Source: Protonemura montana (lineage: Eukaryota > Arthropoda > Insecta > Plecoptera > Nemouridae). From it: a stretch of DNA of 64,000 nt. Position 1 is the first letter of the stretch, and each line of letters starts with the position of its first letter. The DNA lies in contig OX387606.1 of the NCBI GenBank assembly GCA_947568835.1, forward strand, positions 16,802,001 through 16,866,000, given 5' to 3'. The translations under genes and the position numbers were made by a program. Below, one piece after another: positions 268-45,300 of the stretch. The notes beneath the pieces are model-generated. The model saw nothing but the letters and a program-made list of their open reading frames with translations, was not told the origin of the DNA and searched no databases.

Positions 268-383
268 CGGCGATCGTGTTGAGGAACATGAGGTACTCGA
301 AGTTGGAAATCTCCCGCCGTTGCCATTTCTGAGTCATGTTCGAGTTCCTCATCAGTTGTCGGGGAGACATCATAGAGGCGCGC
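268..383 (-). CDS. rg (Nbea): rg exon 28, start of BEACH domain
   Basis: Completes Arg, then [38 protein letters not shown] plus one base. NBEA has [35 protein letters not shown], the first helix of BEACH. Acceptor TTCCAG, donor GTGAGT. The rest of the BEACH domain lies beyond the left edge. Confidence 0.98.
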
Positions 384-3300: not shown

Positions 3301-6300
3301 TTGTAATGTTCAAGTGAAATTGTCATCAAAGTGACTGTCAAAATGTCTTAAACAAATCAAACGGAACCTATCAAATGCCAACCATCAATCAGTTCGCGTC
3401 TCGACATCTGAATCTCATCGCAACAGATTCAATAGAAGATGAGTAATAAAATAAGTTGACCACTTACTCCTGCTGGCAAGGAAGATCTCGATGGCAACAT
3501 TCTGCAGAAGATACCTCCTAGAGAAAATAGCTCGCACTTCAGAAAAGTACCACTTTCCATGAAGATGGTCGCAGTATTTGAGCACCTGCAACAGACAAAA
3601 CAAACAACACATTTTAGAGAAAACCATTGCAATATTCCAAGCACGAATAATACACACGTCATGCTGGATTTTTATGTTACCCCATAACTTTATTCCAAAG
3701 GAATACATCTTAAGCACTTATTCCATTTGAATTTTATTGTTATAGGGGCAATAATCACGTAAAATTACTTCTTATTATTCAGCGTAGACGTTCAGACAGC
3801 ACAAAAACAGGTAAGGTTCACCACGGTCTATGCCAGGGATGAACGTACCTCAACGTGCTATTGCTTTTGTGTGATTGTATCCGTTGTCCCGAACTGATCT
3901 CTCTTCTTAGTAGCTCCAAGTCGTATAACGATACTTCGTTTATACGCGACAATAAAGTTATTTCAGCGTTTTAACTACCCGCGATGAAATGAGCTGGGAA
4001 AGGTTTATGTTTTAATTGCATATTGGCTTTGATTGCCGAGTTGGATCTATAAGTGTTAACCATCAGCTGCCAGCGTTAACTGCGGCTAAACTTTGCTTTG
4101 TGCAATATCGTGTACGTTTGGCGATAACTAATTAGAATGTTAAAACAAAAAAAGAAATCGCTGATTATGAAAAGACTTGCTAAATAAGCGCTAATTCTAA
4201 TATCAAAATTCGTATCAAGTTTGGCGTAGTTTTAAAGAAACCGCATATCCTTCGACGTTATCGCACAGCTTTTCGCTTTTCAACGAGGTTGTTCGTGCAT
4301 TTTCCGGGCAAGTCCCCCCCACTCTCCCCCTGGAAACGAACGGTTGAAGCGTGAAACAAAATGGCGACTGTGCTCTGCGGGCCGTATCGGCGCATGTCGC
4401 AGGGGCAGAGCACGGTCATACATCTCTCTGGCCTGTTTGGTAACAACCAGATCAATGTTTGGCAAGGTACTTGCAACTATACAGAAGAAGCTCTAGCTCC
4501 TCCTCCATGTGCGGACGGCCATCTTTGATAAACATTGATCCGGAAATTTTATATGTTTCTTGGTGAAGACTGCTACACGATGTGGAGTCACCAAAACCGC
4601 TACGCTGTATAACCAACACAATGTAGTCGTTAAATTTAGTTTCGTTCGAATTTTCAAAACTTTACGTACCCACCATGTCAAAAAGAAAGAAAGATAAAGT
4701 TGCTTCGGGGGTCATAATAAACTTTTGGACACATATCTCACTTAACTATTGTTCAAACTGACCAACCCTAAAGATCGTAAAAATTTCTTTACGCTACCTT
4801 TACGTCCATCTGAAAGCTTACAACGTACCTATATTTCAAAAGATTTTTCCCAGTACGTTGTTCGCTCACACAAAGCAATTTTTACACTATCAGAACGGGT
4901 ACAACCCACGCGCAAAGATGGCTCTTCCATTTCCGGCTGCCATTTTCCGCAAGCTGCCTCATTATGTGCGCATGAAACCAACAATGCTAAATCATATCGC
5001 CCTAGGATGACGCAAAATGCACGGTGCAGATAAATCGACAATGACAATTGTAGGTTTTCACCAAAATGTTGACAAGACAATAGACCGCACGATCGTGCTT
5101 CATTAATCTTTGCAGAGAAATCTCTCCACCCCCAAGTTTAGCGCGTCGAGATATTGCGGACGGTTTAATCGGGCTCACCTGGCCAACCGCGGTAATGTCC
5201 TCTAGACATGAGCTGGCCGTGGTTCACGTGCACCATTGCGTATTGTCTGAAATGATTGGTTGCACACATATGGCGGCTTCCCATAGTACGGTTCCTATGT
5301 GATAACAAGACTAAGGTCGGGTTTTACCAAAATGTTCAACTAATAGTTGGATATCTAACTCACAGAAACATCTGAATTTCACTGCATGTGATTGGAAGTC
5401 GCCATGGCAACAGTTTCAACTAGCACTTCAACTAGGAGGCGAGATTTTGGTAAAACCGGACATAAGACCAAAGGTGGTATGCAATACACTCTTGCTGGGT
5501 GAATGTAAATTTGTTTCCAACTTGCATGCACCATAGCGCTAAGTCTGCTAGAATCTTGTAAGTTTTCGGCTTAATTAATTTGTCAAGCAACATTATGTTG
5601 TACAATATATACCTAACCATGATAAATTCCGGGGACCTTGAGATCGTGCGTTAATATTGTGCATAATTGCATTCACGATTTGTATCTCTCATCACAGTGA
5701 AAACATGATACGAAAATTACATCGTTCAAAATAGGTCACAATTAGGATCCTTATACCCTTGTTGTCATATTCCTGTATTAAAACTGGAAATTTTTCTCTA
5801 AACTTGCAGTTATCACTTTCAAATATGGGGAGGGTTCAATTTCAAAATCTCTTGTATACCGCTCAGCATCCAATTCACCCATTGCACACACAATTGTCAA
5901 GCGCTCTTTTTATCCTAAAAAAATCAAACAAACAAGTGAACAATGACATCAATGGATAGCCTGCATCCTAATTGAGGAGGGATCCTTGTTTCCCGTAGCA
6001 TGATGAGGTCACTCAGTTTAAGAGTTCCAAAGGGTCCTTATGGGATCGAAACTTTTGTCAATAATAATGGACACACGTGGCACATCCCACACCCCTTGCA
6101 TTTTCATCCCCTTCGTGACAATGGCGAGATGGTCTTTTCAGTTCGCACTTTGCCATCCGATATATTGGTCCGGGGCACGAGTACGTATCACTAATCGGTG
6201 CTGCAGGGTGGGAGGCTGGCGTGGGGACAGATTTATCTCGTGCGTTCGGTGGCCGCAGGAGCGTGGAGAGATTGAAGGCAAAGCGGTTTTTTCGGGGTGG

Positions 6301-9300
6301 CTCAAATGTGACAAATTTCTTTCAACGGAGATGTGACATGTAAGTGTAAATGATTAATCTGATCACGAGAAGAGGAAAACACTCAGATGGCGTTAGATCT
6401 CGATGTGTCAGGACAAATAACACATTCTGATTTGCTGTTGTTACACTCATTACAAGTTGAACGATTGGTTTGGTTTTTGTCACATTGGATACACACTTAA
6501 CACTTGCAAAATATTAAAAAATAACGATTTACACCTTAATATGAGACCCAGACGTAAAAGTACAGATACCAACTCTACCTTATGTGAAATCTTATCTAAA
6601 TTGCAAATGCTTGCAATGCGCGGGGTATTTTATTATTATTATTATTACTACTCGATAATACTCGAGATTGAATGGTTGTGACGTGGTATAGCGTCACGAG
6701 AATCAGAGTGACTTTCGATGAGTTCCGTCATTCTCATCAAATGCACTAAAATACTCTCAACAATTATGTGTGCAAGTAGCTTAATGAATTAGAGCAACAC
6801 CCGCGATAGGTGGAAATAGGGGTTCGAGTCCGCGTTTGAGCATCAATTTTTGAGACGGTAAATAAAAAATGCTGCCCTTTGCAAGTGAAAAACAAATCAA
6901 GATAAATCCCTTTGTGAAAAACTGTAAGGCATAGGCTTTGGTATAGGTACAGACAAAACGTAAGTCGCAAGCGTTTTTCTAAGCATAAGTAAAGCTGACG
7001 TGTAATTGGAGTGTTCGGCTTGCCAGCAAAATGAAAGAGGGCTGCAGCGTCTGTAATCCGGGGATTAAAAAGGGCGCTTCTCGGGTTACGCGCGACAGCA
7101 ATGGGCAGTGAGGGGCCCAAGAGCCGGCCAGAGTCGAAGGACCGGTGCTGAGTGGGCCCAGCGTGGGGCCCCAAATACTCTAGAGATTGCGCTTTTGCAT
7201 GGCGAGCGCCGCATGTTCTGGGGGCCAAATGGGTCACCGGTTTTCGTCGCGAAGAGATATTGCTTGAGTGTGACCACCGGAATGAAGTTGTCTGTGGATG
7301 GTGAATGGGGGGCGCTGCTTCAAGTGAACTACTTGGGAGTCTGTCGATGAATTCAACAGTGACATGTAGATGTACCATTTATGGAGTTATAAAATGAAAT
7401 TCCTGAGCCTTTCAGGGGGTTAGCAAGATGGCGAAACATTTACATGTTAGGTGAAGAGAAAATTGCTGGAATTATTGAGACATTTGCAGCATTATGAGGT
7501 CATGAATGCATGACAGTATAAGAAACATGGGAAATATATATTTTTAGCGCGGTGCATTGCGTTTTAGGTTAAGTTCAAGCTTATAAAAATATGACCTTTT
7601 GTGCACCTATTTTTAGTAAGAACATAATTTACGTTCATTGAAACAAAACAAAACAAAGCAAAAACTTGACAAGACTAAACACGTGGCTGCACGGCGTTTT
7701 CATTAGGCTAAGTAAATAAGTTCGTGAACAACTGCGACACAATCTTGGTTACCAAACTGAATTTCGTGACATTTCCCTAGTTTGAACATCTATTTTTGGT
7801 GCACAATGTTTGAGAAAACAGAAGGAAATGCCACCACGGAAAAGCAGAGGGAGCGTCTGTGGTGCATGATGCATTGTCCTTACAGTGAGGTCATCAGCAA
7901 CTACTAGACACTAATTTTATTTATGTGTATACCAGAAGCAAGAGTTAATTCAATCATTATCCAGTTATAATCCAATTGTCGTCTAGTCTGTGCACTCCAA
8001 GTGCACTAACCCTCTCTTGATAGCACCCTCTGCGCTAGAGGCCGGAGGGGAAGATTTGCTGCAGGCTCGATTCGCAGAAGCACGGGATAGTTCTCTCAAA
8101 AAAACATTGAGATAACGCTCTAAGCATGCTCATGGATTAATGGCATGCTGTTACAGTGAAAACGATTAAGTTATGACAAGAATTAATTTTTAGAAATCAA
8201 ACTATCAACAAATAACCAAAGAGCGTATCAGTCAAAGGTGCCGATTATAGGTAGACTTGGTACATATCTTTCGGAAAACTTGAAAAGAAATACAGAAAAA
8301 GAACATCTATGAGCGGTCATGTTCAGATTTCAAATTCAGTTGACTTCATATTCACACCATTATTCGAGCGTACACGAGTTATTGCTAATTGACTCATCGG
8401 ATTGCAAATACATATCCGCAGATCAAGTTCACCTGCACCTACGCACCAATTAAAACGGACAAAGAAACCATTTCTTTCCAATCGTAGCCACACCTAGGGA
8501 TCGCTCAATTAAAGTTAGCTCAACTAATTGTCGCAGCACGGGGAACGCACACCAACCAGTCGTCAAAAAGTCACGTCTGAATCCGGTGACATAGCCGTCA
8601 TTCACACCTCGCCGAGGCGGAGTCTCGACACAATGGCTCGCCACCTGATTGGTTGCAGCATTAAAAACTTTTTCAGGTGTCTTGTCACACAAAATCCTGT
8701 CCTATCTGTTAAAATAGACATATAAATCGCAGGTAAGTGCTCGCTCTCTCTCTCTCTCTCTAGCCTTCTCGATGTCTTGGAGAGCTTTTTTTCTTTTTGG
8801 CATCCCCAGTTAACCTGTCCTTTTATAGGGTTTTTATTCTTATGGTGAACCTTTCAAAATGTCTCCGAGAATAAATCCACGCTAAATTATACTACACGCA
8901 AAGTGGCATGGACGCGTATAATTTAGTTATGGTCGCTTTTAAATAGGCCATAACTTAAAATATAATATACGTAAATATTTGCATATAACGTCCTAATGTC
9001 ATTCAATGCAGCGGGTTCGATGGCTAAGTAGACTCGTGAATCAAATTCACTTTACCGCACTCTTCTTTTTGTTGGCATGGCAGAAAGCATGTCTGTTAAA
9101 ATTAAAGGTAAACCTGGACGTTGAAAATATATGTCACTGCATTATATTTGGCTATACGAGTCGCTCATTATAACGTCTTGGCTTTGGTAGATAGATTTAC
9201 GATGCACTTTCGCGGATGAAACAAAAGTCAACTTTAATTGATAGGAGAAAAAAATGCATGCTTTTGCAAGGTCTGCAAACAGGCATTTAGTTTTGTAAAA

Positions 9301-12300
9301 GCTTTGACATTTTCTAGTGCGCGGGTTCAAGGGGAATGAAAATGAAGTAGAGACAACAATGTTCAGATGCAACCCATTTTAGGCAAACTATGTCCTATTC
9401 TTATCTGAGAACTCTTATGATGTAAAAAACTGTGTTTCTAAAAAAAAATAACACACGTTATGATGAACGGTAATTTTATGTGTTTGGTCGGTTTCACCGA
9501 CACGACTGTAGTTTAGCTCAAGATTGTATAATCCCTAAAACAACAAGATTTAGCAAATGTTAGGTATGGGCACTCAAATTAGGGTAACATAGGTAAAACA
9601 GCCTAGCTTCCTTTCCACGCTTCGCTTGCTGATTTTAGCTATCCAGTGGAAACACCAGAAAAATAAAAAAACCATGCAAGAAAAACATAGTTTTTAGCAC
9701 AGATTTAATTGAAATGGGGATGTTTTGTGATATAGAAATACGTCACGGTTTTGTCTGACAGTACTTTCTTTGAACTAGACGAGAGGTTTAAAATTTAAAA
9801 CTCAAATTTCAAATATTAACCCGAGATTAGCACGAAACAAATTATTGACAGCTACCAAATGTATTCTGTTTGATGTGACAGAACAGTGTCTTCTTGAATA
9901 AATACTATATTTTAATTTAAATGTCGATATTATTTTAGTGATCGTGACTTTCAAACCTTTTAAAATATCGGAACCAAGTTTAACTTAAAGTTAGGACAAA
10001 AAATGTCTCCAGCTAATAAAAGTAATATGAAAACAACAGGACTCATGCCTTGGAATTAACACTGATCACAATACATCTTCCCTGATAGAACGCACGCTGG
10101 GCCATCGGAGAGGACTTCGTTATTAACGGTTTGTTTAGCTTGGCTAAAAGGTAGATCTGCTTCTGCCACTACCTCGGCTTATTTACTGTTTTATTTATGT
10201 GACTCCTATTTTACTCTCTGTCTCGAGCTGTGTTTTTTGTGTGGTCCTGCGGTTGACACCCAGAGACCTTCTCCATCATTAACCCGGGCCTAGAAGACAA
10301 TGGCATGTCCTATCAGGACACGACCATCTCCCTGAACGCATGACGAGCAAGCATGCCGAAGTCCTTGCGGTCTTGTGGAGGCAAACATCATTTGATGCAG
10401 ACTTTTCACTAACGAGAATACAGCCAAGGCACAAAGTCATCGAGGTTCGGTGTCAATTGAGGACGGAATTTTTCAGTTTACAAGAAAAGTTAAAAGAGTT
10501 TTATGTGGTTATTAATTGGCCTGTATTCATTTTTAATTGGAGGCGGTTTTTTACGCCGGAAACCCAGTGAGGCTGGCACTCGATTTTTATCACGAGGAAT
10601 ACGTTTAACTTAATGAAGTACCAACGAAGTTAAAGAAAAAAATATTAGTTGGATTTACCAAAGCGTATAGGGCTACGACAGGTCACTGGAACTAGAGGGA
10701 GTTGTCAATAACTCAGATTAAAATTTCATATTTACTAAGATTTTCAATACTTTTAATTGCCAGAAACCTATATCTTTTCAGACTTGAAATCTAGCCTATT
10801 AAACTAGTGTACGAGTGGGCGAAGCGAACTGTATATTCACGGAAAACATTTTGTGATGATTTTCTTGGTCCTACCAATAGATGTCGCGCCCAGATCGAAC
10901 GCTGCACCCAACCATACCTCGTAAAAGTGAGCCGAATGATCCATCGATCATTCCCAGATCTCATCTAACGTCCACAAAAATAAAAGACAAATATATTTAT
11001 TGTGCGATCTGGAAGGAGATAAAATTGTGAGAACGTTTTAAAATATTGCAGAGAACTATAAAGGCAAGACAATCTCACGGATCAAGTTTTTGAACATTAA
11101 ATGTTGCCATGCCCTCTAAGAAATAGTATTGCCAGACAATGTCTAGACAATTTTCTCAGACTTTTATAACACCTTCAAAATAAACTGTCCACGCAGCGCA
11201 AATTTCACGACATGTCTCAAATTACTCTAGAGGAAATATTTATAGTAATAGTAAATAGTAATCACCCTACAAGTAATTGAAAGTAGTCAAATAAATTGAC
11301 TACGTGGCATCGAGTGCAATGGTAAATAGTGATGAACTAGAAAGTTCTGCAAGCTAGCTGATAGTGGTCCTATCGTTTACAAGTGAGGCTGGTACGCGGT
11401 CCAATCTGACCCCCAACAACCCTAATAGCTCCACGGGATGTGTGCAGGCACGGCCGGGGCGCGTTTGGCGAACGAGATTGTGCTGATGCAACGGCAGTCC
11501 GATGTTTGCACGCACAAATCGATAAGCAATGCTCATGTTTTGTACCAGACTTTCACAGAACCGTCCCAACGTAGTGTTCCGAAACCGGTGGCTAGGTGCC
11601 GCGAACAAAGAGCGAATCATACTTTTGAGTCACAAAATCACAAAGTAATTACAAAATTCGCCCAAAAACGTTGCGAATAATTTGGCTAGGCGTTTAATAT
11701 ACGTGGTAGCCATTCCTGGCAGTCCGACCTACCGGCGCAGCAATGTGATTCTGTTGCTTTTTCCCAGGGAAATTAGATATTATGAGATGTAAATAGAAGG
11801 AAATCTTTATTGGTTATTTTGTGGGCTTTGAAAAAAAATGTATCATCGCATCTCATCTCATTTCACTGGATAAAAAGGTGCAAAATCGTACTCCAGAGAT
11901 CATAAGCCAGTCCAACAAACATGCTAAAAGCTTAGTTCTTTTCGCTAAACTAAACTGTAACTCGACTTCAAAATTAAATGTTCTAAGGGGCAAAATAACT
12001 TTCACATTCCCGATTTTCAAACACAGTTCCATTTGCACCACATATCAACTTTGCATAGTCGCCATTTACAGGTCTCAAAATCGTTCCACACATTTGCGTG
12101 CTGGATCGAGAGGACTTGGGAATTTCGTTGTTCGGTTTTAAATAGGTTGTTCCACAGTATCAGTCAATGTTGATAGGTACAGGATTAAAGAAAATGACAC
12201 ATTCTTTTCTCTAAGGTAAAAGTACCTAAATCTCATGAATATCTTTCTAGCTGGGACTTTTTAAAATCATACCGAGCAGGGTCACATTTATTTAAGACAA

Positions 12301-15300
12301 ATCCAGGAACCCTACCATGTAAACTCGCCTAATGGTACAAACTCAAAGAACATCACAAAAAAGAGACAACTAATATTCCGAAACATACACTAATATCTTG
12401 TTTTTCTGCAGCGAGGGTTTAATTTAAAGCTAAAAACTCATCGCGCCCTGTTACCAATTTCGCCGTCATGTTCTTCCAATTCTCATCTCCACTCACCGAA
12501 AACAGCCCACGTGCGAAAATTTGGCTAGGTTGCTGCAAGCACCATGGCGCAGGTCTAAAAACTAACGGAAGTAAGTCTGTGTGTCCCGGGCCTGCGGTTA
12601 GTCGCTAATTCGTGTGGCGCCTCCACTGCTCCCGTCGTCGAGCAGATTGACAGGCTCATGTATAAATAAGACCAGTGGCGGCATTAGTACCAACCAAACA
12701 CTACGGAAAGCCTCGAAGAATGGGGCATTTTAAATAGTACGGCAATCAGTTTTGAAACTTATCTGAACCTGACTGCATCTTAAGGGAAAATAATTTATGC
12801 ACATTCAATAATGAACAACGATTCTTATGAATTTGGTTAGCTTTCAACTCAAACGGTGTTATTGAATATTGTGTGTTGTAAACTGTATATATTTTTTTAA
12901 CTGACTGTCAAAATAACATGTATGTGGTCAATGATGTCAAGGAGCAAACACAATAACATAAAGGTACACCAGGGGAAGAAGGTTCAGACAGAATCTTCGC
13001 AATCTTCACTTTTATGCGTTTATTATGGCTCCACTGAACAAAAAAGCACACCGAAGTTAAATAAATACATATTAGCGTCATTCAACTATGAATGGATGTT
13101 GATAAAAATTTTTGGTCCAAGCGGTCAAGTCGAAAAATTGCCCTAACATGGTATAAAATGTATCGCAATCTAGTTGGGCACACACCCCTCTGCCTCACAC
13201 CGTAAACGCCACTGCCGTCTTCAATGGGGCGACGGCCAAAGCTGTGACACTGACAGTGGGCTTGGCTCGGCAGGTCCGTCTCATGCACGCGGTTAATTAC
13301 TAACAGATCAACAGTGTTGTCTTAGGAAAGGGAAACCATAACTTGAAGATGCTCTCAGCGTCTCAGTTCCGACATCATTCTAAATGTTGACAGCTGTGTA
13401 AGAGGAAATGAAACAGTTTATTTCAAAAGGGAATATGCTACAAGGTATAGATCTTAGTGGCGAAGAACAGATGCACACACGCTAGCAGGGTTGGTTAAAG
13501 ATTAATATAAAAATGATCTAGGATCTATATAATCTAAAAGCATATCACCTGTCCGAATTATAAAAACCAACATATTAAGCAGGCGATCTAAAATAGCATG
13601 TCAGTGCGTTTCGATGATAAATTAATTGATAATTTCCGCGACCGAAAGCCTGAAGGCTAAAAAAGAGCATGAAAAACGACTCATCTATGAAAGTTGAGTT
13701 ATAATTTCTTAAACACTTTGTAGCTGCTCTTGACGGGTTTCCCTCCTCCACATATGCTCACATTTCAACTCTCTTGATTTTATTTTTTCGTCCAACATCA
13801 ACTTAAAGATGCTCGCTATTTTTAAAACACCCATAGCTCGTTCTTGCACACTATATATTTCATCGCATGAAACTTCGTCCTGCAGGCATCAGGATATGAA
13901 CGAGCTAACACTCATATATTAATCCATCTGGTCTCAGCTATAGCCATATCATACAACACCTCATTGTGCGCTATAAAAACCTAGTTACAAAGAAGGTGTC
14001 ATTATGCGGGTTAATCTTTCTTTTCACACCTTTACACGGACACGTCGAGTGCCATTGAATTGCAGGCTTACATCCATAACAGTCCCATTAACCAGTAGGG
14101 GCGCCCCAACGAGCAACATCCTGACACGAAATGTTAGTGTGCATTATGGTTTGCTTATTATATTATAAAAATTCGAATTCTTTAATATTAAGCCGCCAAC
14201 ACTAAACCAATAGAAAAAAATCTATGATCCTCTACTCTGTGAATTTGAAATAAAATTGGGGTGGTCCTTTAAGTCTAAGGTTCATGCAATGCTTGTGCAG
14301 ACAATTACGCGACTGAATTGTGTAATAGACTGAGCGTAGGACTGGCAAGGGTCAGGATTGGTGTAGCATTATAGATATAGGTACTTGACAACAAGCAACA
14401 GAATTGGATAAAAGAGCCGGCTTGTTCCTGTAGGTATAGATCTAGGATCAATGGGGCTAACGTGGCGTGAAACCCAGAGAGACTTGTATCTCTTCATTGT
14501 GGTCGTTGTTGGCTAAAAGCTATATAGTGAACATTTATGAAGTAAAGGTTTGTGTAGGGCGAAGTTTAAAAAAATTTTGTAACTCTGTAATATTGATATT
14601 TTTTCTATGTGTACGGCTCTATCAGGACAGCGCTGCGTTAAATAGTATTGTTCGTTGCCGGATAAATTCCCAGAAATCATAAAAGGAACATACTTGGTCG
14701 TTTTACCGGTACCATACCAATATGATATGCAATTCCTCGTAGTCGTATACAGTACAGAGATTATATAAATCTCGGGGAACATCTTAATTTCCTACCAATT
14801 TCAAGTGCCAATGAACCAAACAGGGTTAATTCAGCATTTTGAGAGCCCGAAATTGGACACAATGTACTTTACTTTCCTGCAGAGGGATGTGTTAAGTAAC
14901 AGATGTAGGTTTTCACGCATCCGTGGATAATTTCGATAACAAAAGGAACCCCATCTCTGTTGATTAAACATGCATTGAGCAGCATCGCATGTCATGCATG
15001 ATTACTCTCCGCAAGCTACTCATGGATGGAAATGTTGCACGGAACGCGTTAGAGTTTTCCGGAGGAAAGTGGAGCCGCAGAGGAAAGATGCCGCGCTGAA
15101 CGGAATAATGAGCAAGACTTTCGATTCTCAATTTAAATTATAATTATAACAGTGAAGATATTTAAATTAAAGAAGTTTACCTCGTGATTATCAATCATAA
15201 TAGTATTATATTGCCAAATATTTATAGGTGAGTCGAATAATCTGTGAGAACGCTTACCTCGGCAACCAGAATAAATGAGATAATCTCATCGCAAGACTCG

Positions 15301-18300
15301 TTTCACAAATAAATTGCCGCATGACTACCAAACACTCGGAATCAATTCGATCACGTATAGTTTTTTCGTCTGAAATCTCTCCCAGATTCCCGATGCCAGC
15401 GCGTCCTGCATCTCGACGCGATGCTGCACCGCGCGACCGAGGGGCAGGCGGGGGTGCAAGGGGCGGTGCCCGGCGTCGGGGGCGTCGAAACCACGCGTCG
15501 GCGCCCGGCCGGTGACGCAACCGGCACCCGAGAGGCGGGATGAGAACCGGATCTATCGCCGCCACGATTGGATTGCCGACGAGGCGAGGCGGCGAGCAAC
15601 GCCAAAGGAACCTCCCTTGCTCGCCGCGCACCGCAAAGGGGGCCGCTGCCGCCGCCGCCGTCGCCGCTCACCTGGCCGAGTCGAGGCTATCGCGGCGAGG
15701 CACCCGGCAAGCGAGACAGTCGAAGGTAGCAAGCGAGGGCGTCCAGGCTGCAACTAACCGGCCGGCTATCGAGATATCGTCAGGAAGAGAACTGAAGACG
15801 GTGGCGTCGCGCCGTTCATCTATATCCCAGATCGGCGTCCCGGTGTGGGGGGTCTATCTTATCATCCCCTCCACCAACCACCACCGCCGATGACAATGAG
15901 ACGCGTCAAGGAATCAGCTCACGCATTCTTCTATTGTCAACGGTGAAGGAAGCATCCAAGATGCTTGTACCTCCAGACATGATGGCTGCTCAGTCGAAGA
16001 TGCTGTACCAGATCAATAAGTTTTACGGTGAACGCGTGCAGAGTCGCAAGGGACAGGTGATGAAGACGATTCGCGAGGTGTGCAAAGTGGTGCAAGATGT
16101 GTTGAAGGAGGTGGAAGTGCAGGAGCCGCGTTTTATCTCGTCGCTCACCGAGTGCAACGGCCGGTTCGAGGGCCTCGACGTCATCTCGCCGGGCGAGTTC
16201 GAGGTGGTACTCTACCTCAACCAGATGGGGGTGTTTAACTTTGTCGACGACGGCACCCTGCCCGGCTGTGCCGTCCTCAAGCTCAGCGACGGCCGCAAGC
16301 GTTCTATGTCACTCTGGGTCGAGTTCATCACAGCGTCTGGATACCTGTCGGCCAGGAAGATTCGTTCCCGCTTCCAGACGCTAGTGGCTCAGGCGTGTGA
16401 CAAATGCGCGTACCGGGACTCTGTCAAGATGATCGCAGACACGACGGAGGTGAAGCTGCGTATCCGTGAGCGGTTTATCGTGCAGATAACCCCTGCGTTC
16501 AAGTGTTCGGGCGTGTGGCCGCGTTCTGCGGCGCACTGGCCTATCCCGCATATCCCGTGGCCGCACCCGAACCTGGTCGCCGAGGTCAAAACGGAGGGAT
16601 TCGACCTGCTGTCCAAGGAGAGCGTCGCCATGCAGGGCAAACAGTCGGCGATGGAAGGTGATGCGTGGGTACTCTCGTTCAACGAGGCCGAGAACAGACT
16701 CCTGATGGGCGGATGTCGCCGTCGATGTCTCAGCATTCTCAAAGCGCTCCGAGACAGGCATCTAGATCTTCCCGGGAACCCAGTGTCGTCGTATCACATG
16801 AAGACACTGTTGCTGTACGAGTGTGAGAAGCATCCACGCGAGCTTGAGTGGGACGAAGCTTGTTTAGGAGATCGAATCAACGGGATTCTGTTGCAATTGA
16901 TTTCGTGCCTGCAATGCCGGAGGTGTCCGCACTATTTCTTGCCAAATTTGGACTTGTTCAAGGGGAAGTCACCGAGTGCGCTCGAGAACGCGGCGAAACA
17001 AGTGTGGCGCCTGACGCGGGAGCTGCTCACGAACACGCGTTCCCTCGAGAAACTGTGAACCTGATTGATTATCAGCGATACGCGTCCTCTCAATTCTTAT
17101 CTTGATTGTGCTGTGCCAAACATCTCAATGTTCATTCACTTCTCGAAGATCTCGATTTACTAACCTAACTTGTTTATGATGGAATTTTCCGCGCGGCTTG
17201 CCCGTATGTTTGGAGCGGATGTCAAAGGACTAATAACTTGTACCCCCGTATTAAATTATTATAGTGTGTAAAATGTCTCGACGTGTTTCATCAAAGCTTA
17301 AACGATTAGATACGATTAAATTAGATCGTCATCGGCAATTTTCATATGCCAGCCGTTTTAAAAAAACGAATGAGCTGCGCCTGAACGACGTGCATTTGCG
17401 CAAAACTATAGTAGGCCTAACTTTTGAAGAGCACCCGCGCGTTTGTTTCGCAAAGTCTAGTGCTACGGGTTTATTCTCAAAACGAGCTACTCATTTTCTT
17501 GTATGCGCACTCGTTTAATTTCGTTTCGATCTTAATCAAGTGAATGACCAGTTTATAGGCTAGTCTAAAGGAATGTATACGGTAAATTTAAGCGAGTTGT
17601 GAGATGCAAGCATTTTCCTACAGTGCATGGCAACTGCAATCGAAAAACTGTGAGTGAACGGTGTTTAAATTTAGCATGTTTATATAGACGTAATACAAGA
17701 CTGCTGTGTCGATATTAGGGCCTACCTATTATAGAGTGTTATGTTTTCAAATGCTGTGTTAAATATTACCAATCCGGGAATCTAAGGTACTGTACATATT
17801 TATTAAATTATTAATTAAAAAAAAACATACATTTTCGTTGCTTTTATGCAGATCATTTCTGTTTCAATGTTGTTTAAAAATAAATTCTCACTCGAAATTG
17901 TATTTTATGGGCCAAAAGCTTTAATTAAATGTATATCAAACAAAATTAAGTTATGTGTAATATCAAACTAAAAGTAACGTTAAGCGAATCAAATTCAAAG
18001 CCACGTTCAATTCCTATATTCATGACAGTGCATTTCGCATTTTCAAACTCGTTCCCGCACACATGTAGGCATACGAAATAAAATGTGAAAACAAAAATCA
18101 AAAATTATGTCTGCATTACACTTAATTTACTTGAAGACACCTGACCGACATCCATTTACTGCCAATTATATACCTTCGTTCTCTGGAAGAAACCCTTTTC
18201 ACTTTCTTTGCCTACCCCATCAGTTAAATGTAAGGCCTCCGCCAACGCCACACCCGTCGCAACTGTCTCCGTCCGTCTTGATTATTTCGAATCTAATTTC

Positions 18301-21300: not shown

Positions 21301-24300
21301 GCAACCCACGGGCTAGGTAATGCGAATTACCATTAGTACCTTGGTGATGAGCGTAATGATCAAAAGCTTACCTGCAACACACGAAAGAAAGCAAGCTATT
21401 AGCGAACAGCAATCGAGATCACGTGCCTCATCAGATATAAGAAGAAGAAACCAGGATATACAAAGCAAAATTGAACAGAGCTTTAAAAAAGAACCTGCGT
21501 TCAAAACGTATGCTATTTCTTTCCAAACAAAACCAAGAAAAAAAACATGGATATACGCAACATAAGTTTGATCTCGGTTGGTAGGTACCTACACATAAGC
21601 GATAAGAAATTGTGGATAGAGATTTCAAAATTTTCTTTATCATTTACAGCATTATTATGGTCCATGAAAGCATGTGCTTTTCAATACAAGGGTACCCCGT
21701 ACAGTATTACCTTTGGTATTACCTATATGGACTACTATAGCCTCAGTAAACCAAGAGCAGATCGAAATCAGACATTTCTATATCGTGTCTACCTATCTGT
21801 GCACGCGGCTTGCAGCTGGATGAAAGAGTTGTATGCTTTTATGCCTTAATTACGAGATTCCGTTGGCAAAGTCTCGCACAAAGCGTTTCGAGGGAAGGAG
21901 TGAGAAGCAATGAAAGCTAATTGCATGTAATGCGATATTCTCTCTGGCGCTCCCGCGGAGCGAAGGAACAATGATACGAGATTTTCCAATTCCATGCGAC
22001 AGACGTTGCAATGGACGCGCAGGAAACCCGACTGTCGGAAGATTCATATCAAATGATTGTAGAAAACGTACCAGCAATGATCTTGAATTAATTGTGTGTT
22101 ACTTGAAATCAATTTCAGACAGGTCAGCTGGATATTGACGTTTCAAACGACTTCATGTCTGACTTCATGGCATATTTTTGTATAATAAAAAGGAATGGCT
22201 TTATCCATTTTCAACAAAAAAATAATCTCGTTTTACAATTGAATATAATTGTGTTGGAAAAAAAATAAGACAACTATTTTATGTCACAGGATATGGAAAC
22301 GTGAACCATACGTGACATCTTATGATGAAGGTTGGATTTCGAATTTTATTAACTTCAGAAGAGCTGCGATATAAGACATGATTTCAGCCATTATTGGCCG
22401 ATTTACACTTTGCGGATTGAATCCTTCCGATCCAATCTGTCCGTCTCGGATCCGTCCAAACGACTTTGTGTTAATAACCACCACAAGAATCAAGACGGAT
22501 TGGCAAGATCACGGATCCAATCCATGGGATAGGAACGCGTTGAGTGTATCGCCAATCCGTGTTTTGACATCCATGCGGCAAAGAGGACAGATTGGCAAAG
22601 AGACGGGGTCCAATCCGACAAGAATGCCAAGATTGGGATTGTACTTGGGATTGGCGAAGCACATAGCAATGCATTTCAATGAAACGGATCCAGTACGTGG
22701 GTTACCAGCACTCAATAGCCCCTATGGAAGACAGAGTTTTACAAAACTGAACTAAATCTTAAATGTAAGAGCTAAGGGATGTAACGAAAAGCGAGGGATT
22801 GAGCATCAGAATCAACTTGCTTTAGTAAAGGAAATAAGAATGAGCTAATATAATGCTGATTGTATGAACCGTGCTAGAAAGTATGATGGTATGGGGGGGG
22901 GGGGAGGGGGAGAGTTAATGTAGCATTTTGCTCGAATAATAATGAATGGTAATTTGGCGGGCGTCTCGACGCCGCTGGGACGGCGTCGCTTGCCGGTCCG
23001 ACGGCGCGGAAAATAACCAAAGCCACCTGCTTGGCATCGACTCGAGGGGACAGTTCGACGACGTCGACCCTTGCGGGTCTACAGTTCGCGGAGCGAAGGC
23101 TTTATGAGTCATCGAAATTTACTGAAGTTATTTGTCGTGGTCTTTATACGATTTTGAGTCAACTTGATAGAAGATTATTTGATTTAAACTCCAAATTTCG
23201 CCGCTCTTAACGTTTAGGTATTATATGTTTTAAAAATTCCAGATACTGTGCCCGGACAATTGATAGTTTTTATATTGAAGGTATAGATATACCGAGGAGC
23301 TTGTAGACGCTCAAAAAGTTATTCGTATGGCTGAAGCAGTTGTAGAATAAAATCGTTCAAATACGCTGGTCAGCAAAATAACTATATTTTCCCGAAAAAT
23401 GAATAAGATTAAATAACATTTCAAACAACTGGCCATCAATGACAAGGAGCGTAGTTAAACATCAATGAAGCGTAAAATAATCCAATGACGTTTTCATATA
23501 TCAAACCTATTTAAAAAAATGCAATGACACATTATTTTGACATAATGTAGCGACCCTTTAATTGAGTTACGAATCGTCTGTTTTGTTAAAATCACCACCC
23601 CATGTCCAATGTCCTCGTCCTCCCCGCGGCCAATATTTTCAGCGTGTAACACCACCGTCCTCTCTCTTCTATTCATAAGGGTGACATAAATTTATAAACT
23701 AATCTTCATCAATGTCGATTTTCCTTTCAGTTGAGAAGCCATCCATAGTGTGCATGGCTCTTGATGGCTTCTGGATCGTTGACTTTGCCTCGATTCGAGC
23801 GCGAAGTCGGCTCCAACGAGGCGTGAATTGCACCAGCACTGCATTTTGTCATCCGAGGGGTTGCGGCACTGAATCGCAACATATTAATCAAGTCGCAATG
23901 AGACTTGCATTACGCAGTAATTATGCACGGACCGTTCCATTACGACGCGGGCTTAAGACAAATGCTAACGTGACAAATTTCGTGCGAGCACCGTTCAATT
24001 ACAAGCCGTTGGGAGGACGTTTGAAACTGCCGCCTCCACAAAACACACACTGTAACGCGTCGGCCATTTTCTCATTTTACAAATGCACATCACAAAATAA
24101 TCGATTCAATCCGTTATTTTGATCGTCGTCAAAGATAAATCTTCGACTCATCCACTTAGAAAAAAGTCCTTGGAAATGTTTTCACGGAGTAATTTGATAT
24201 CAAAACACGTAAATAGTTTCAAAAGGCATGTAAGACGTGAGAGCATATACCGTCGCCGCGCGCGGTTCCTTTATGCAAGACGCAGCTTGAAGAGTCCGAG

Positions 24301-27300: not shown

Positions 27301-30300
27301 GTAGCTTTTCTAGGTATGACTGTAAGGAACTACATGCTAGTAAACTATTTTCAGCAAAGCATTTTCCAACCTCTTGTAGATATGGTCCTATACCGTCCGT
27401 TGACGGGCAAGCCATTTCACTGGCTAACACGACAGGTACAAGCCATGCAATGTGCAAGACCTAACATACAGTTTGGAAGTCCAATGGACTTGTGTCATTG
27501 TGAGGCACATAGTCGAAACTGGCGGCTATGCTAGTACGTCATGGGGGTTGCATAACCGCAGTCTCCGCTCCATTCATACTGCGGCATCGTACATTCGTAG
27601 ACTTGGCTCTTTGGAAATCACTTTTCCTAGTTTCTAACATATATTAAATTTCTTTGGACCTCATAAAAACACTTGTGGCGTTCGATTAATGAATCGTCGC
27701 CACCAGCACTTTACTTTCAGAGTGTATCAACGTCTTCAAACAATAAATTGTTTAAATATTTTTCAACAATGGCACAGGAACTCAACAATGGCACAGACAT
27801 CGCCGCGAATGAATTGAACGGGAATCATATGAAACCAAACCGAACCCGTCGTATCGCTCGTAAGTAGAAAATGATTTGCTTGATCCCATCACAGCTCGTT
27901 CGCTGCGCGACGACGCGCAGTCGGCGCGTTGCATCGATATAAATCAGCGGCGCGCGGGCAGCGGTTGCGCAGCGCAGGCCTTGTCACCATCACATAGAGC
28001 CCGGCATCAGATAGTAGGTGAAGGATGGATAATATATACACATAAAGAATCTACTCTCTGAGCAGGCAAGAGACCCGGCTAAGAGATCCTGGCCAAGCCA
28101 TGGGCAGGCCAGTTAGATGGCAGCAAAACATGTCCCGTGTCCGCTAGCAGCTCGTCTGGGAACCGATCTCGGGACTCTGATAACATCGGTGCTGAAAACT
28201 GACAGGTCGGGCCAAAAGGCCACCCGAGCTGGAAAAAAACGAGTTCTTTTTTGTTTCGATGTCGTATTCTGTGCGCCATAAGGACAGAGATGTGTAGATA
28301 TGAAGGTTTTCGTTGAAGATGCTCGTGGTTGGGATTTGTGATTGAGTGGGTTACATGCGAGTGGTGCGATCATAAAGTATTTTTAGTATTCTTTAAATTT
28401 GTATCCACATCGCGACATTTTGTAAAGGATTCCATGCGATGAATAAGGTATAGTCAGAGGGCCAGCGTTAATGTTTAATTTTCTGCTGAGCAAACGAGCC
28501 GGTAATATGTGGTAACGGTAGGTGGCCAACCGATGGCGTAAGCGACCGCCTTTTCTAACAAACTTCTGTATTTAAATAATTACGACTTAAAATACCGATA
28601 TACGTTTATCAGTTGCTAAGTAAAGATTAATAAAGATTAGTTGAGCGTTAACCGTAAATGCGAGTAATCTACAAGAAACACCGAAATAAAACTTATAACT
28701 CTCAAAACGACGGTGACTCCGCCTAGTAGCATCCCTCAATTTTTATCGGTTAAGTAGTCATTTGGCGGCAATTTTTCGCGAATACAGCTTAACATTAACG
28801 CTAAAGCAGTACGAAATCGTAATTTCTTTGAATGCACCAGATTATTTCAGGTAGGACTGCTGATCTTCATGATTATGCGTGATCACTGCAAGGATATTAA
28901 TTTCACGACCATGCGAAAATTCCGTTGTCCAGAACGTGTCATGTTAGATTTTGTTTGGTGCAAGCATCGAAAAGCATGCATTCAACTGTCATATCTCGTA
29001 AGAACGATGCATCTCAGAAATGTGCAATTACAGGAGATGTGCAATTAAACTGCCACGCAGAGTAATAATATCTTGTCAAGCAGCTTGCTCTGACTAGCAG
29101 ACATTTTATAAGCGTACGTGTTATATTTCTGTTGTATTGAAAATTATTTTAAAAGAAAAGACTGCGCCTATATATTTTTTTTATAATTTAATATTATTTT
29201 TAAGACAAGTGAGTTAGCACAAAGAGGTTGATGGAAGATGAAGTTTAAAATATACTCTTGTACGTCTGGATAATTAAATGTGAGGCGAAGAGGAGGGACA
29301 GAATGAGATATTCAAACTTTAACAATCAAGAACACCTTTCTATCAAAACAGAAATGAGAAAATGCTTCGGGCTTAACAGGTACAGTTTATAAATATATGG
29401 CAACAGCTTGTTATAAAGGTGGTCTATGGGGAATTGCTCGTGCTTCTCTAAACTTTCAATTATAAACTCTTGTGTGGAGTATCATTCTGGATTTAGCTTA
29501 ACTGGACTTGCCCCATGACGGCAAAAATAAGAGTTACTTTGAGAAAAGACTGGAGAATAACTGTAAAACTGGAATAAATTCAATATATCACACGGTTTTG
29601 ACAAAAACCATTTGAACTGGGTTTTGAATGCTAAGTGAAGAACAACTAAATTTCCCGCCGTTTTGTAACTTGTACCTGTTACTTTATCAATGGTCCATCA
29701 AGCGGTTTAACAAACTGTTTTAACACTCGTTAAAGTAACAGATAAAAGTTACGAAACATTGTGAAATTTAGGTGTTCTTCACTTAGCATTCAAAACCCAG
29801 TTCATATAGTTTTTGTCGAAACTAGTGCTAAGGTTAGATAAAGTACACACGAGTCTAAAAACCAGTATACCACACGGAATTTGAATTACAACTTGGGGAG
29901 GGTGAATACAATAATTTTGGCAACACATAAAATTTGTTCAACGTATCTTTTCAGGTAATATATACTAACGCATCTACAGATCCACAGCCCACACTCGTTC
30001 TTGTTTCTCTCTCCGAATGTCTAACAATATTTAATTAAAGAGTGTACAGCCCATACGTCCGAGCGGAGTGCACCAACATATAATTAAACTTCAAACTAAC
30101 TTGATCATTGTTGAGCTAACGAGGTATGGAGGGTAGAAGGTTGGGATATAGGCGTTTTCACCATAATGCTCGCCGTGGCCGAGCTTTCAAAACGTTAAAT
30201 TAAATTTTTATGGAATTGACATGTAAGATGGCAGCTTGCCAGTCAAACACGGGTTTATACTGTTTATACCCTGAAGATATTAATTCCAGCAATTTGTAAG

Positions 30301-39300: not shown

Positions 39301-42300
39301 TACTCGTTAACATAGAAGCGCGCTTATGTGGTAAAATCGGATAGGTAATCTACAGAGGTTTTGACGCTATTGTTTTTTGTTTGTGTTTGATTTTCTAGCC
39401 GAGAGATGTCACGGGCAAGGTTGCAATTAAATGGAATTTTAAACGTAATGCTGTCAACAGCGACTTTTTTTTTGTGTCCATAGCTCCTTCGTGGACAGTG
39501 CTGGTAGGCATAAGATAGAAATAATTCGTAGACACAGGTGTTATTTATCGGTTTCTAGGCGCCACAAGAATCTCATGAGAGAACTTTCAGTCGAGAAGAT
39601 TCAATAGCAGCTTTAGAAGGCTCCAGGCATCGACATCCCCCTAGAAAACTACTCTGCGTTTATAAAAAATATTATCGCGATTATTGAATAATATACGTCG
39701 ACCAATTTCTCTGCCACACATAATAATTGTTGATGGCCATCATCTGATATTTACACGTGAGCAAGAGAGAGGCAGGGGGAGGGGGACGTCCTGATCACTA
39801 AAGAGACTATGGGATGCTGCATACTGGACCGGTTACCACACAACTATCACGACTGATCAACTCGAATACCTGGCAGCGATTCCAGAGCCAGCTCGAGCTA
39901 ATTGATTATCGCTGCTAGAGCTCTTCTTTCAGACCTGCTTGGCTGTGTTTTATTCGTTGCTTTTTTACGACTCGCAGTGGAGGAGAGGTAAAACAAACAG
40001 TGCTTGGACCCCCCGGGGCCCGGGGACCCCTCAGGTTCGGCCAATTATATCGGCCCCTGCTGAGGGCCGACTCCGCTCTGGCGGGGACCTCTACGCAAGC
40101 GCCGCGTAACCTCGTCGCAGCCGAGGCCCGGATACGTGAGATCGGGAGGAAAATTTTGTATTCGATTTTATCCATCACGCGATGTGGTGATCGAACGGAA
40201 TAGGTTTTAGGTGAAACTTGTGATTGCGGATGCATCCACGCAAGACCGGCTTGCTGGAAAGATGTCCCAGACTAAACACGGACCTTGAACACTTTCCTAG
40301 GTATCACCCAAAAACAGTCATCCCGAACATATACCCCGAAATCGGGTTTTTAATTACATTCAACAAGAGCCAAAGCTATTTATTTTCTTCATAAAATGTC
40401 ACTTGCCTATCGACATTCGCTTTATGAACTTCACTTACCGAAAAAATTGCACACAGGGATAAGTTATAGGTCGTTAGAGTCTAATAGCGAGGTAAATCCT
40501 GGAACTGCCTCTTCCTTTAAAAAACCGAGTAAACGAGAAAAGTTCTCACATAACTTAGGTCGAGTCCAGACCTACCCGACATTCCCCAAATATCGGTGGT
40601 CAGTTGCCCTCACCGTCTGCATTGATCACCAGCACGGGACATTTATACAAACAGATTGCTAAACGAATATTTACCTACACGCCATGTCTATTACCACATG
40701 TATCAAGTTTTGAACCCGCCCATGCGGTCAAAGCTTGAACTGTTATGCATCCTTGTCTTTAGTGAAGGTGAAGTGATTTTAGTGTTCGTGTCAATAGTTT
40801 AACCCTAATTTATAACTTGTGCCTTTCAAAGATGACTGTTTATTACGACAGAGGGGACGGCCCGTGGCGGCAGACGTCTATGACGACTACAAATTACATA
40901 AAATAACTACACCAAATGACCTTATATAGGGTAGTAAAACTGTAATTTTGCTTGCAATGCAAATATTACCTTCGAGCGTAGACACGCAAATGCACGCAGC
41001 GCGAATGTATGTTAACAATTTTAATTTCCTCGTCCACATATATGGAGATAAAAATAAAAAAAAAAACACTGCTGTAAATTATATTTGAAAACGCATGGCA
41101 TCCTGTAGAATGTGTAATGAGGGATGCACTACATTTAGTTTCGATCTAGCCGTTTTTCAAATTCAAATAAAAATTAGGTCCCGCATCAACTGCCAATTCT
41201 TGCAGACATTCTACGCAACCATAATTCTTCATCCTCGTCCCAATTAATCGCTTATCCACACGCATACGGATCCGAGTGGGTTCAACTATCTAGTAAAAAA
41301 GGGTGGTCATTTCACGCTGCCGTAAATAATCTCCTAGACGACCACCCACCAATGAATGCAACCCCCCAAATGGGAGACGATGGACACAGAAAGTTATCCG
41401 TTGTATTAATCAACCACATTAAATAAGTTGCGAGTCTTCAGCACAGCAGGGCTGACAGGGGTAGTTAAAATTATTTACACAGCAAGAAGAGGTAGCATTA
41501 TGAGAGAGGAATTCCAAATGTGGTTTGTCTTTGGAATGTGAGGAGTATGATGGCGCTACTCAAGCGAGTGGACATTATGTTTTGGAATTATTAATTGATA
41601 TGCATGAGCTTCGAAATGGTAATAGGAATTCAGATTAATATTCATGGATAACAAGGTCCATGTGAGCGAAAATACGTAGTCGAAATTTGAAGCTCTCTGA
41701 CTAGATGTTGAAGAAAGACTAAAGAAAGTCAGATAAGAATATCGCTTGTTCGGGAAATAATGAGAAAGGAAACGAATTATTTTTTCCTTCAGCGAGCGAT
41801 CATCGGGCATCAGGGGCCGGCTATCATGCATCTGTCAATCTCGTAGCCACACAACCCCTACACGCTCACCTTTCCATCTGATATCAACTTTATAAGGCTT
41901 CGCATGCAAACCGAGAAAACTCATCACGTTTTCCCACAAGCTTTCCCTGATCGAAAAACACACAAAGCACTATCAATTATTGGCGAAGTTTTAGCTCTCT
42001 CAGTGACTTCCGGCGTACAATTAGGCAAACGCTAAAAAGCGATGTGGTTTTTATAAATCTATATAAAAAATCATTCAACTTAATTTGTATGGTACGTGAA
42101 CGCACTACCTATCTCCCAGTCCCAGCTCTTGTTTCGCAAATCGATTCAGTCTCTGAAACAACGATGCATTTCGCTTTGGAATTTTGCATGCTAACGAATG
42201 CCACGACTTCCCCGGCCTAATCACCGTCTTTGCCTACTAGTCCTAGAACTTGTACGACGTCCACAATGCGAATTGATTAATGAGGTAAAATGTAATTACA

Positions 42301-45300
42301 GGTTTCATTGACCAATCCTGATTTATTGGCCATCGTGTTTGGTTAACGTGAAGAGAGATCGAGTCCTCGGGCATTTTTCTAATTGCATATACAAATAGCC
42401 ATTAGCATACGTTTACCCAGCACCACCAGCGCATTAATACGCTCGTAGAATATAGGTGGTCTGCTCGTAATTATTGTAATTTTCGTAATTTTCATACTTC
42501 CTGATCAAAAATCATGTAATATCTCTTGACGTATTGATGATAACGTGTTTGATTTACAAGTGTTTAGCATTTTATCGAACTTTTAAACTGTTTCAACAAG
42601 CACACACTTTTTATGAGCGCCGTGAAACTTACGGGTACACTTAAAAATGTCTACTTTAATTTCCCTCCCAAAAACGATCCGATAACTCCAACAGGACCAC
42701 GTCCATATCGCGTTAATTATAGTTCATAAATTGGTTCAATACCCAACCCGCACTTAAATACTTTTTTCGCTGTTTTTTCAGCTCAAATATTTCCGACATA
42801 AAAATAAAACGCGTCGCTGTATTCGGATACTTCGAGGCAAAACAACTTCATTCGTTCGCTGATCAGAAAAGCTAGAAAAAACGAGTCTTACTAAACGATC
42901 GTCATCTCCGTCCTGAACAACATTTCAAATCAAAATCAAGCCCCCAACGCCCCTCGTGTTATTCAGCCAAAATGTACCAAACAAAAACGCCCAGGCTAAA
43001 ATATATAGCACAGGTATAAGCAATGTAACATAATATACACTGCGACCCATCCCGTGCGATATAGCGCATCTAGCGAGCGAGGTGAACTGCCCAGAAATAA
43101 AGGGTGTAGATAGAAAACGAGACTGTTTCCATGACTTCGATTGCGTGTTTGACATTAATTATAGACACTGGGTCCAGTTGCTTGCTTGACATAGTAATCG
43201 CCCAGTGAGGTGGACGGACAGCTGTCGGGCACACCTACCAAACGCCTGTCTATTTGCCTATCTAATCTGAACATGCACTGCGTTCGTACCCGGGGTACGA
43301 GACCCAACGATGGGATGGGGGCGATCATTTGCAAATCAGCTGGAAATTTATCTACGAGCGAGCAAGGTTAATTGTGAGGTCAGAAGCTTCCTAATAACCC
43401 GGTAAAAAAAACCTCCGGAGTCTTGGTTGCTGTTGTTCAAGACATCACCCACACTGTGGGATTGGGCGAAAAAGCTCCTTGGAGGTGCTAGCGACATGCT
43501 ATTTTGCAATTACTGGCAGTCGGTGTTTTGCATTAGCGATCTCGTTTCCAGTTTTGGCATTTTTATCTGGCGAAAGATAAAATTTTACTTCGCTTTTGTT
43601 TACCATAAAAATGGTTCTAAGTTTGCTGTGTGACTGTTTAAATAATTTTGCAAAGAATGTAAATTAGCTACTTGAAATTGATAAAGATCTCATTTAGATA
43701 TGAGTTATTGTTGGGTTGTGGCACATCAGCGCCAAGTTTATGTAATTATTATGTGACATGGAAGTTGTGAATGAGATAAATTATGAAATTTGCATTCTCC
43801 ATGTGATATTAATTGAATAACTAATCGAAATAAACTTGTTGGAAACATAATTTGTTTGAATAACTCTGAACTGGATTGAGATCATATGACTTCTAGTTCA
43901 TGCTCATGTTCTCCTGGAGTGCAAGTAAAGGTCATACTGTTTCCATTCGAGTCTTTGAATGAAGCCTATTTGCACAAAACAGGTTGACATATTACTACAA
44001 CAACAAACTGAAGGTGATCCCTACCTCCGCGTCGATCTTCTTGAACTCCAGGTCGTCTTCGTCGACTTCGAAGTACAGTTCCGTTGATGTTATGGACACG
44101 ATGCCCGTCGTGATGATTCCAGGAGCGATCAGTCGCGCCTTCGTACTGATGTTCACCGGTCCTGGGAGAAAAATGCCGAAATAGTTAATGCATTTTTTTT
44201 AGACAAGCTTGTATAATTAAAGGATTTAGTAGCATCCAAGTAGGTGGCAAACCAAGGAAATTTGTATAAGTTTCACCAAATTATTTTCTCTTTATTTTTC
44301 AACACACAGAAATATATGCATTTCACTGCACACCATTATTTCTACAGCTAGTTCTACTAGGAGTTGAGAAAACAGTAAAACTTGGTCAAAGAATAAGAAG
44401 CTCAAATTTGGAAAAGGATACAAATGTATCGCCAAGGCAACAGAAAAAATCAATGGGTTGGCAATAGTCACCAGTGACTCACCGGTGAGGTCTTGGTCCA
44501 GGTCGCGGTCGTCGTTAAGCAGCTCGCTATCGTCCATCAGATCGGACGACTGCGCTTGCTGCTGATGCGTGCGTGAGGCCGCCAGGTGGGCGTGGAACTC
44601 CTCTCGCGCCTGCAAGATGGCGTCTTCAGGGGCCCCGTGTTCTAGTGCTGCCTTAAGAGTTGCCTCCGGGTGGCTCGAGCCCAGCGGGTTGTGCACGAAG
44701 CGTTTGCGTCGTCGAGCGTCGTCTTCCCATGCGTCGAGCTTCCAGAACTCGTTGAGGCTGCGTTTGCGAACGGAAACGTGTTGAGAAAATCTTGCAATAA
44801 TGCAGGGATGGGGAAAAACTCTGTCTTCACTCTGTCGCTTGCAACTAGAGTTTAATTTCTGATTGTGTCATTGATATTTTGCAAAATCTAGAGAATATGG
44901 TTGGTTGAGTCAAATCTAAGCCATTTTTAAACTTGTCCATTAAAACATACTTGCAGGTTCAACACGAAATTTTTTGTGACAAACTTGTTCAATTAACTCC
45001 ACATTCATTCTTGCCTCCAAAATCACCATTATCTTAGAGCATGGACGTAGGCAACTAAAGCAAAGAAAGATTGAGACATCTGAAAAGTTTTTTTTTTAGG
45101 GAAAAGTACAAATAGCTGATTTTTTTTTTTTTTCAAATGGAAAAAAACTTGGCTTGTTAAAATTGGACCAATCTAAATCTAAATTCTTTTGCGGGGATCT
45201 GCCCGGGATTGCGAAAGTGTCGACTTACGATGCGGTGTGTGGGTCCATGTAACCCCACGCTCCATGCTTATTCGACATGATGTTGCGCACTTTCTCCAGC

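Follow-up and report, generated by a model that had tools for sequence, protein, structure and literature searches.

A single-exon mab-21 gene nested antisense in a giant intron of a neurobeachin-type gene of Protonemura montana

The host gene, the giant intron and the nested gene

The stretch of DNA analyzed (the window) spans 64,000 nucleotides of the genome of the plecopteran insect Protonemura montana (contig OX387606.1, positions 16,802,001 to 16,866,000). It includes part of a neurobeachin/rugose-type gene, read on the minus strand, and one intron of this host gene encloses a complete mab-21 gene on the plus strand. The features of the pair are given below in window coordinates, with the evidence in brackets.

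15961..17058, plus strand: complete single-exon mab-21 coding sequence, 365 residues and stop (open reading frame, Pfam, PDB match, genome protein search)
3586..44024, minus strand: giant intron of the neurobeachin/rugose-type host (exon ending GCG GAG at 44025, then GT donor; AG acceptor, then exon starting GTG CTC at 3585)
44025..44161, minus strand: last host exon before the giant intron, 137 nt, PH domain up to KKIDAE (splice sites, Pfam, PDB alignment)
3468..3585, minus strand: host exon A, 118 nt, PH domain continued from VLKYCD (splice sites, Pfam, PDB alignment)
1381..1483, minus strand: host exon B, 103 nt (splice sites)
268..383, minus strand: host exon C, 116 nt, where the BEACH domain begins (splice sites, Pfam)
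Beyond the window, minus strand: host exon D, 113 nt, past the 4,259-bp intron that separates it from exon C
44483..44756, minus strand: part of the next upstream host coding exon, coding for the C-terminal portion of DUF1088 and followed by a donor at 44482
Within 45995-46849, minus strand: upstream host coding stretch, N-terminal part of DUF1088 (Pfam)
Within 52947-54848, minus strand: upstream host coding stretch, end of DUF4704 (Pfam)

The outer bounds of the further host coding stretches are 45995..54848, these coordinates being those of domain-bearing stretches and not exon limits.

At the donor side of the giant intron the KKIDAE codons (AAG AAG ATC GAC GCG GAG) are followed by gtaggg, the first base of the intron being 44024 on the minus strand. 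At the acceptor side tgtctgttgcag precedes GTG CTC AAA, the exon starting at 3585 and the last base of the intron being 3586. The intron, running from 44024 to 3586, measures 40,439 bp, is of the GT…AG type, and lies in phase 0. An earlier reading of the window, made from the letters only (the sequence-only reading), had reported a 40,439-bp rg intron holding a complete antisense mab-21 gene, and a PH domain split between KKIDAE and VLKYCD. Splice sites, open reading frame, Pfam and the structure match bear out the first claim to the base; the second agrees with the PH_BEACH match, which covers residues 100-196 of the joined host exons, the intron falling after residue 137 (counted by hand). 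The same reading took all other introns seen to be 2 kb or less. This is true of the two downstream introns lying wholly in the window; it is not true of the gene as a whole: the introns downstream of the giant one, to which the comparison refers, measure in order 1,984, 997, 4,259, 659, 287 and 117 bp (by hand, from exon edges), the third starting at 267 and leaving the window, the last three residing beyond it.

The joined host exons match DUF1088, PH_BEACH and BEACH in Pfam, the BEACH match beginning at residue 229, and separate host stretches match DUF4704 and DUF1088 (matches were found in four of the seven pieces submitted, one of the four being locus L018, which carries Mab-21 domains). 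LRBA 1t77 (E 2.8e-167) and NBEA 1mi1 (E 6e-167) are the only PDB matches at E values up to 0.001, and both align with the host over 334 residues without gaps; over the first 206 aligned residues, 151/206 are identical in NBEA and 143/206 in LRBA. Domain content and alignment identify the predicted host product as an NBEA/LRBA-type BEACH protein.

The mab-21 frame is made up by 365 uninterrupted codons (15961-17055, plus strand), with a stop ending at 17058. Judged on the coding sequence, untranslated ends excluded, the gene is antisense to the host and resides wholly within one host intron, 12,375 bp from its acceptor end and 26,966 bp from its donor end. Its product matches the Pfam families Mab-21 (1.2e-43) and Mab-21_C (5.9e-31), and, over query residues 8-365, the structure 5eog, 'Protein mab-21-like 1' (E 3.8e-204). 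The ungapped alignment to the MAB21L1 chain of 5eog, which we take to be human, counts 286 identical residues out of 358. The GC content is 0.60 in the interval 15586-16585, over the start of mab-21, against about 40% in the intron; the observed/expected CpG ratio of this interval (1.15) is ordinary for the giant intron, where values reach 1.44.

A second mab-21 gene of the same type was not found by a protein search of the whole genome in which four candidates were scored, the one strong match being the gene in the window. The search gave a single further protein match, partial and 26% identical (E 4.5e-6), and five other Mab-21 domain matches in the genome have E values of 1.8e-10 to 1.6e-5, vs. 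3.1e-42 for the gene in the window. The nested gene is classified as a MAB21L1/2 orthologue, an assignment based on identity and on the genome search rather than on a tree. Other Mab-21 domain matches (L002-L006, at G000:C4:7172176-7184415 and C2:14307663-14309023) come in several pieces, as introns would leave them, and one group of these pieces adjoins a high-copy repeat.

The nested pair and its intron in other animals

Nesting of this type is already known, both as a kind of arrangement and as the Mab21-Lrba/Nbea pair, reportedly described by Tsang et al. 2009 (Genomics 94:177) as a nested gene pair conserved across animals. Members of this mab-21 family are syntenic with the host in all the metazoan taxa of one study except D. 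melanogaster, and are found in vertebrates in NBEA and LRBA introns (PMC1784063, Fig. S10). The single exon of MAB21L1 lies in an NBEA intron and is transcribed from the opposite strand (PMC9681113), and in nematodes of all clades mab-21 resides inside the largest intron of sel-2 (PMC4994411). The homology to the vertebrate nesting (MAB21L1 in NBEA, MAB21L2 in LRBA) pointed out by the sequence-only reading is supported, and has long been published.

P. montana shares with the published pair a MAB21L1/2-type gene lying antisense, as a whole, in one NBEA/LRBA-type intron. Its coding sequence is uninterrupted, as in Nematostella and vertebrates, and in contrast to fly, worm, Ciona and sea urchin, where mab-21 is interrupted, with introns reported in D. 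melanogaster and C. elegans (PMC1784063). One strong mab-21 match was found here, whereas two copies are stated, as data not shown, for Anopheles, Apis, Tribolium and Bombyx (PMC1784063). As with nematode sel-2, mab-21 is antisense in the largest intron of a neurobeachin homologue (PMC4994411); the likeness is one of nesting, which has been lost in Pristionchus.

The position of the giant intron can be compared with LRBA, a check proposed along with the sequence-only reading. Exons A to D, which follow the intron, add up to 118+103+116+113 = 450 nt, or 150 residues, are in phase 0 at both ends, and align to 150 LRBA residues without gaps. Eight exons were measured; taken four in a row they give five sums, 474, 450, 473, 490 and 527 nt, and only that of A to D is 450 nt. 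In humans, four LRBA exons are lost in a deletion 19.38 kb upstream of MAB21L2, which takes out 150 residues in frame and part of the PH and BEACH domains (PMC11511899). Loss of host residues 138-287 would likewise cut both PH (100-196) and BEACH (from 229). In addition, the guide directed to 'exon 40' of zebrafish lrba (PMC11511899) reads EVFMAN in one frame (hand translation), and this lines up with EIFLAS in exon A, and with EIFMAN/EVFMAN of LRBA/NBEA.

In exon length the host agrees with LRBA if its giant intron is taken as the one 5' of the deletion. Since only the run A to D equals the 150 residues deleted from LRBA, the giant intron very probably occupies the position used for the nesting in human LRBA, the breakpoint intron of the deletion being, we infer, the intron that holds MAB21L2; the introns of the arthropod host and of LRBA would then be the same by descent. 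A translocation breaks NBEA, a gene of 58 exons, in intron 41, and MAB21L1 is silenced on the derivative which keeps exons 1-41 (PMC10557686); the finding fits the same intron position, with which it is compatible, without being a proof of it. The exon-length evidence for the human LRBA intron position is the one addition made here to published work. The locus adds to the known ancient pair a clean case, with one single-exon mab-21 gene and an exact splice position, in a lineage which keeps a nesting lost in Drosophila, and is a place to ask whether arthropod mab-21 enhancers sit in the host intron.

Possible reasons for the retention of the pair

A single-exon developmental gene, antisense in the PH-interrupting intron of a BEACH-protein host, is best explained as the ancient pair, retained in ordinary form. 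The intron of about 40 kb would be a regulatory domain of mab-21, with enhancers that act on mab-21 but leave the host alone; if a break moved mab-21 out, some of these enhancers would be lost to it, so that the pair would tend to stay together, and the intron to stay long. We think it probable that the locus is a retained ancient nested pair, the intron being most likely the regulatory domain of mab-21. The constraint would be a tendency rather than an absolute one, given that some lineages have split the pair. The arrangement resembles a genomic regulatory block with a bystander host gene, as reportedly described by Kikuta 2007 and Engstrom 2007, in that a developmental target gene is surrounded by a large noncoding interval and by a host whose function is unrelated; the likeness is one of layout, blocks of this kind being defined by clusters of conserved noncoding elements around the target gene. 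MAB21L2 is among the named loci of this kind (PMC2745767).

Enhancers in the giant intron, and a selective reason for retention, are presumed by analogy to other animals. In Xenopus, disruption of an Otx2 site in CE14, an element of an lrba intron, lowers mab21l2 but not lrba, and four of the five conserved elements Ma-Me (Ma, Mb, Md and Me) drive tissue-specific LacZ expression in mice (PMC11511899). Worm, fly and human each have their own cluster of noncoding elements at mab-21 genes (PMC1852409, Table 1); the conserved ones are two in worm, six at CG4766 and nine at a gene printed as 'mab-2' in fly, five and four in human. Fly mab-21 keeps elements although un-nested, an indication that elements can move along with the gene; the nesting can therefore be lost. 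It is conceivable, though rather doubtful, that the PH-splitting intron has been a regulatory chamber of mab-21 at one splice position since before the arthropod-vertebrate split, that mab-21 arrived there intronless, perhaps as a retrocopy, and that the architecture outlived the turnover of enhancers, sequence not being what is conserved.

Several observations weigh against a regulatory role of the intron as the reason for retention. Both D. melanogaster mab-21 copies are about 800 kb away from the neurobeachin homologue (PMC1784063), nesting is missing in certain insect species (PMC3786989), and mab-21 is outside sel-2 in both Pristionchus genomes examined (PMC4994411). Nor did the giant intron itself give direct support for enhancers, either in motif counts or in the Rfam search described below. 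Eight short motif classes were counted in it and compared with 200 first-order resamplings. Seven of them are within two standard deviations of chance; the Otx class was found 14 times vs. 21.4 expected, the homeodomain motif TAATTA 29 times vs. 21.5. GAGAGAG (7 vs. 2.0 expected, z 3.3) is the only class above chance.

The losses of nesting also bear on the wording of the sequence-only reading, according to which the arrangement is held across bilaterians, mab-21 enhancers in the host intron preventing separation. The pair is ancient, as published, but the former statement is too strong, nesting being lost in Drosophila, some other insects and Pristionchus. The enhancers are made plausible by the vertebrate experiments, but that they prevent separation is likewise too strong a statement, the pair being split in Drosophila and Pristionchus. 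A mab-21 gene outside the host in related species was one half of what that reading had named as its own refutation, and is on record for some relatives.

Retention may also have been passive. mab-21 would have landed in a long intron of an early animal, and, exit requiring rare double breaks, would have stayed there under no enhancer constraint, the intron growing by drift and repeat insertion. That nesting has been lost more than once, is 'obviously not essential' for both genes in Pristionchus (PMC4994411), and encloses motifs mostly at chance levels agrees with this explanation, as does the entry of short dispersed repeats into the giant intron, two of which are the following.

28443-28813: short dispersed repeat
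29595-29875: short dispersed repeat, foldback with 92-nt arms

The listed repeat matches, however, cover about 1,500 bp (5%; unions made by hand, a lower bound) of three stretches that make up 30,001 of the 40,439 bp of the intron, and recognizable repeats therefore do not explain its length. In vertebrates, moreover, elements inside the host act on mab21l2 by experiment (PMC11511899), and we judge passive retention unlikely. A depletion of repeats in the giant intron is not supported by either of two comparisons. In three non-random controls, where only the best candidates were scored, repeats cover at least about 310 (L014, near the host gene), 4,020 (L018) and 1,601 bp (L020) per 10,000 bp, the latter two loci having been picked for Mab-21 hits. 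Among 21 tiles, the five window tiles touching the intron have 542, 0, 341, 0 and 146 bp of repeats, and 14 other loci 0 to 4,939 bp, eight of the 14 having 232 bp or less.

Selection could alternatively act on transcriptional interference, each gene damping the other through antisense overlap. Host and mab-21 are on opposite strands and the overlap is complete, but disruption of CE14 alters mab21l2 and not lrba (PMC11511899), LRBA-deficient fibroblasts retain MAB21L2 transcripts, somewhat reduced (P 0.48 and 0.999; PMC11449124), and in P. pacificus the expression levels of host and antisense genes are uncorrelated genome-wide (PMC4994411), which makes such a coupling highly improbable. Misassembly placing mab-21 inside the host can be dismissed: nothing was found in its favor, other animals have the arrangement too according to published work, the window lies within a contig of 25.9 Mb, and the one strong mab-21 match in the genome is that of the window.

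Other sequences in the intron and in the genome

Besides mab-21, 14 frames of at least 120 residues are listed in the intron. Ten of these were scanned and none reached a Pfam family cut-off; the scan did not extend to the four overlapping either mab-21 or the upstream end of it, nor to frames below this length. A 15-residue match in 23703-24122 (17.1 bits vs. a cut-off of 25) was taken as chance. In the window, none of 4,227 Rfam families of structured RNAs gave a match at the gathering score.

The foldback repeat at 29595-29822 has 92-nt arms, 88% complementary, separated by a 44-nt loop; it resembles miniature inverted-repeat transposable elements, and dozens of copies are found genome-wide among the matches listed. 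A dispersed repeat of about 170 bp resides at 5303-5470 (query 1718-1885 of 3586-13585), and its listed copies, spread over the genome and in some cases in tandem, are mostly 86-95% identical.

Nuclear copies of the mitochondrial cox1 region were detected on the same contig as the window (G000:C4:5760925-5762262 and C4:5776811-5777755; L023 and L025). One nuclear copy scores equal to the small contig C34:3504-4841 (L024), and the copies result either from recent insertion or from an assembly join. A trnL(taa) gene follows cox1 and precedes the stretch where cox2 falls, an order which is presumably the pancrustacean one.

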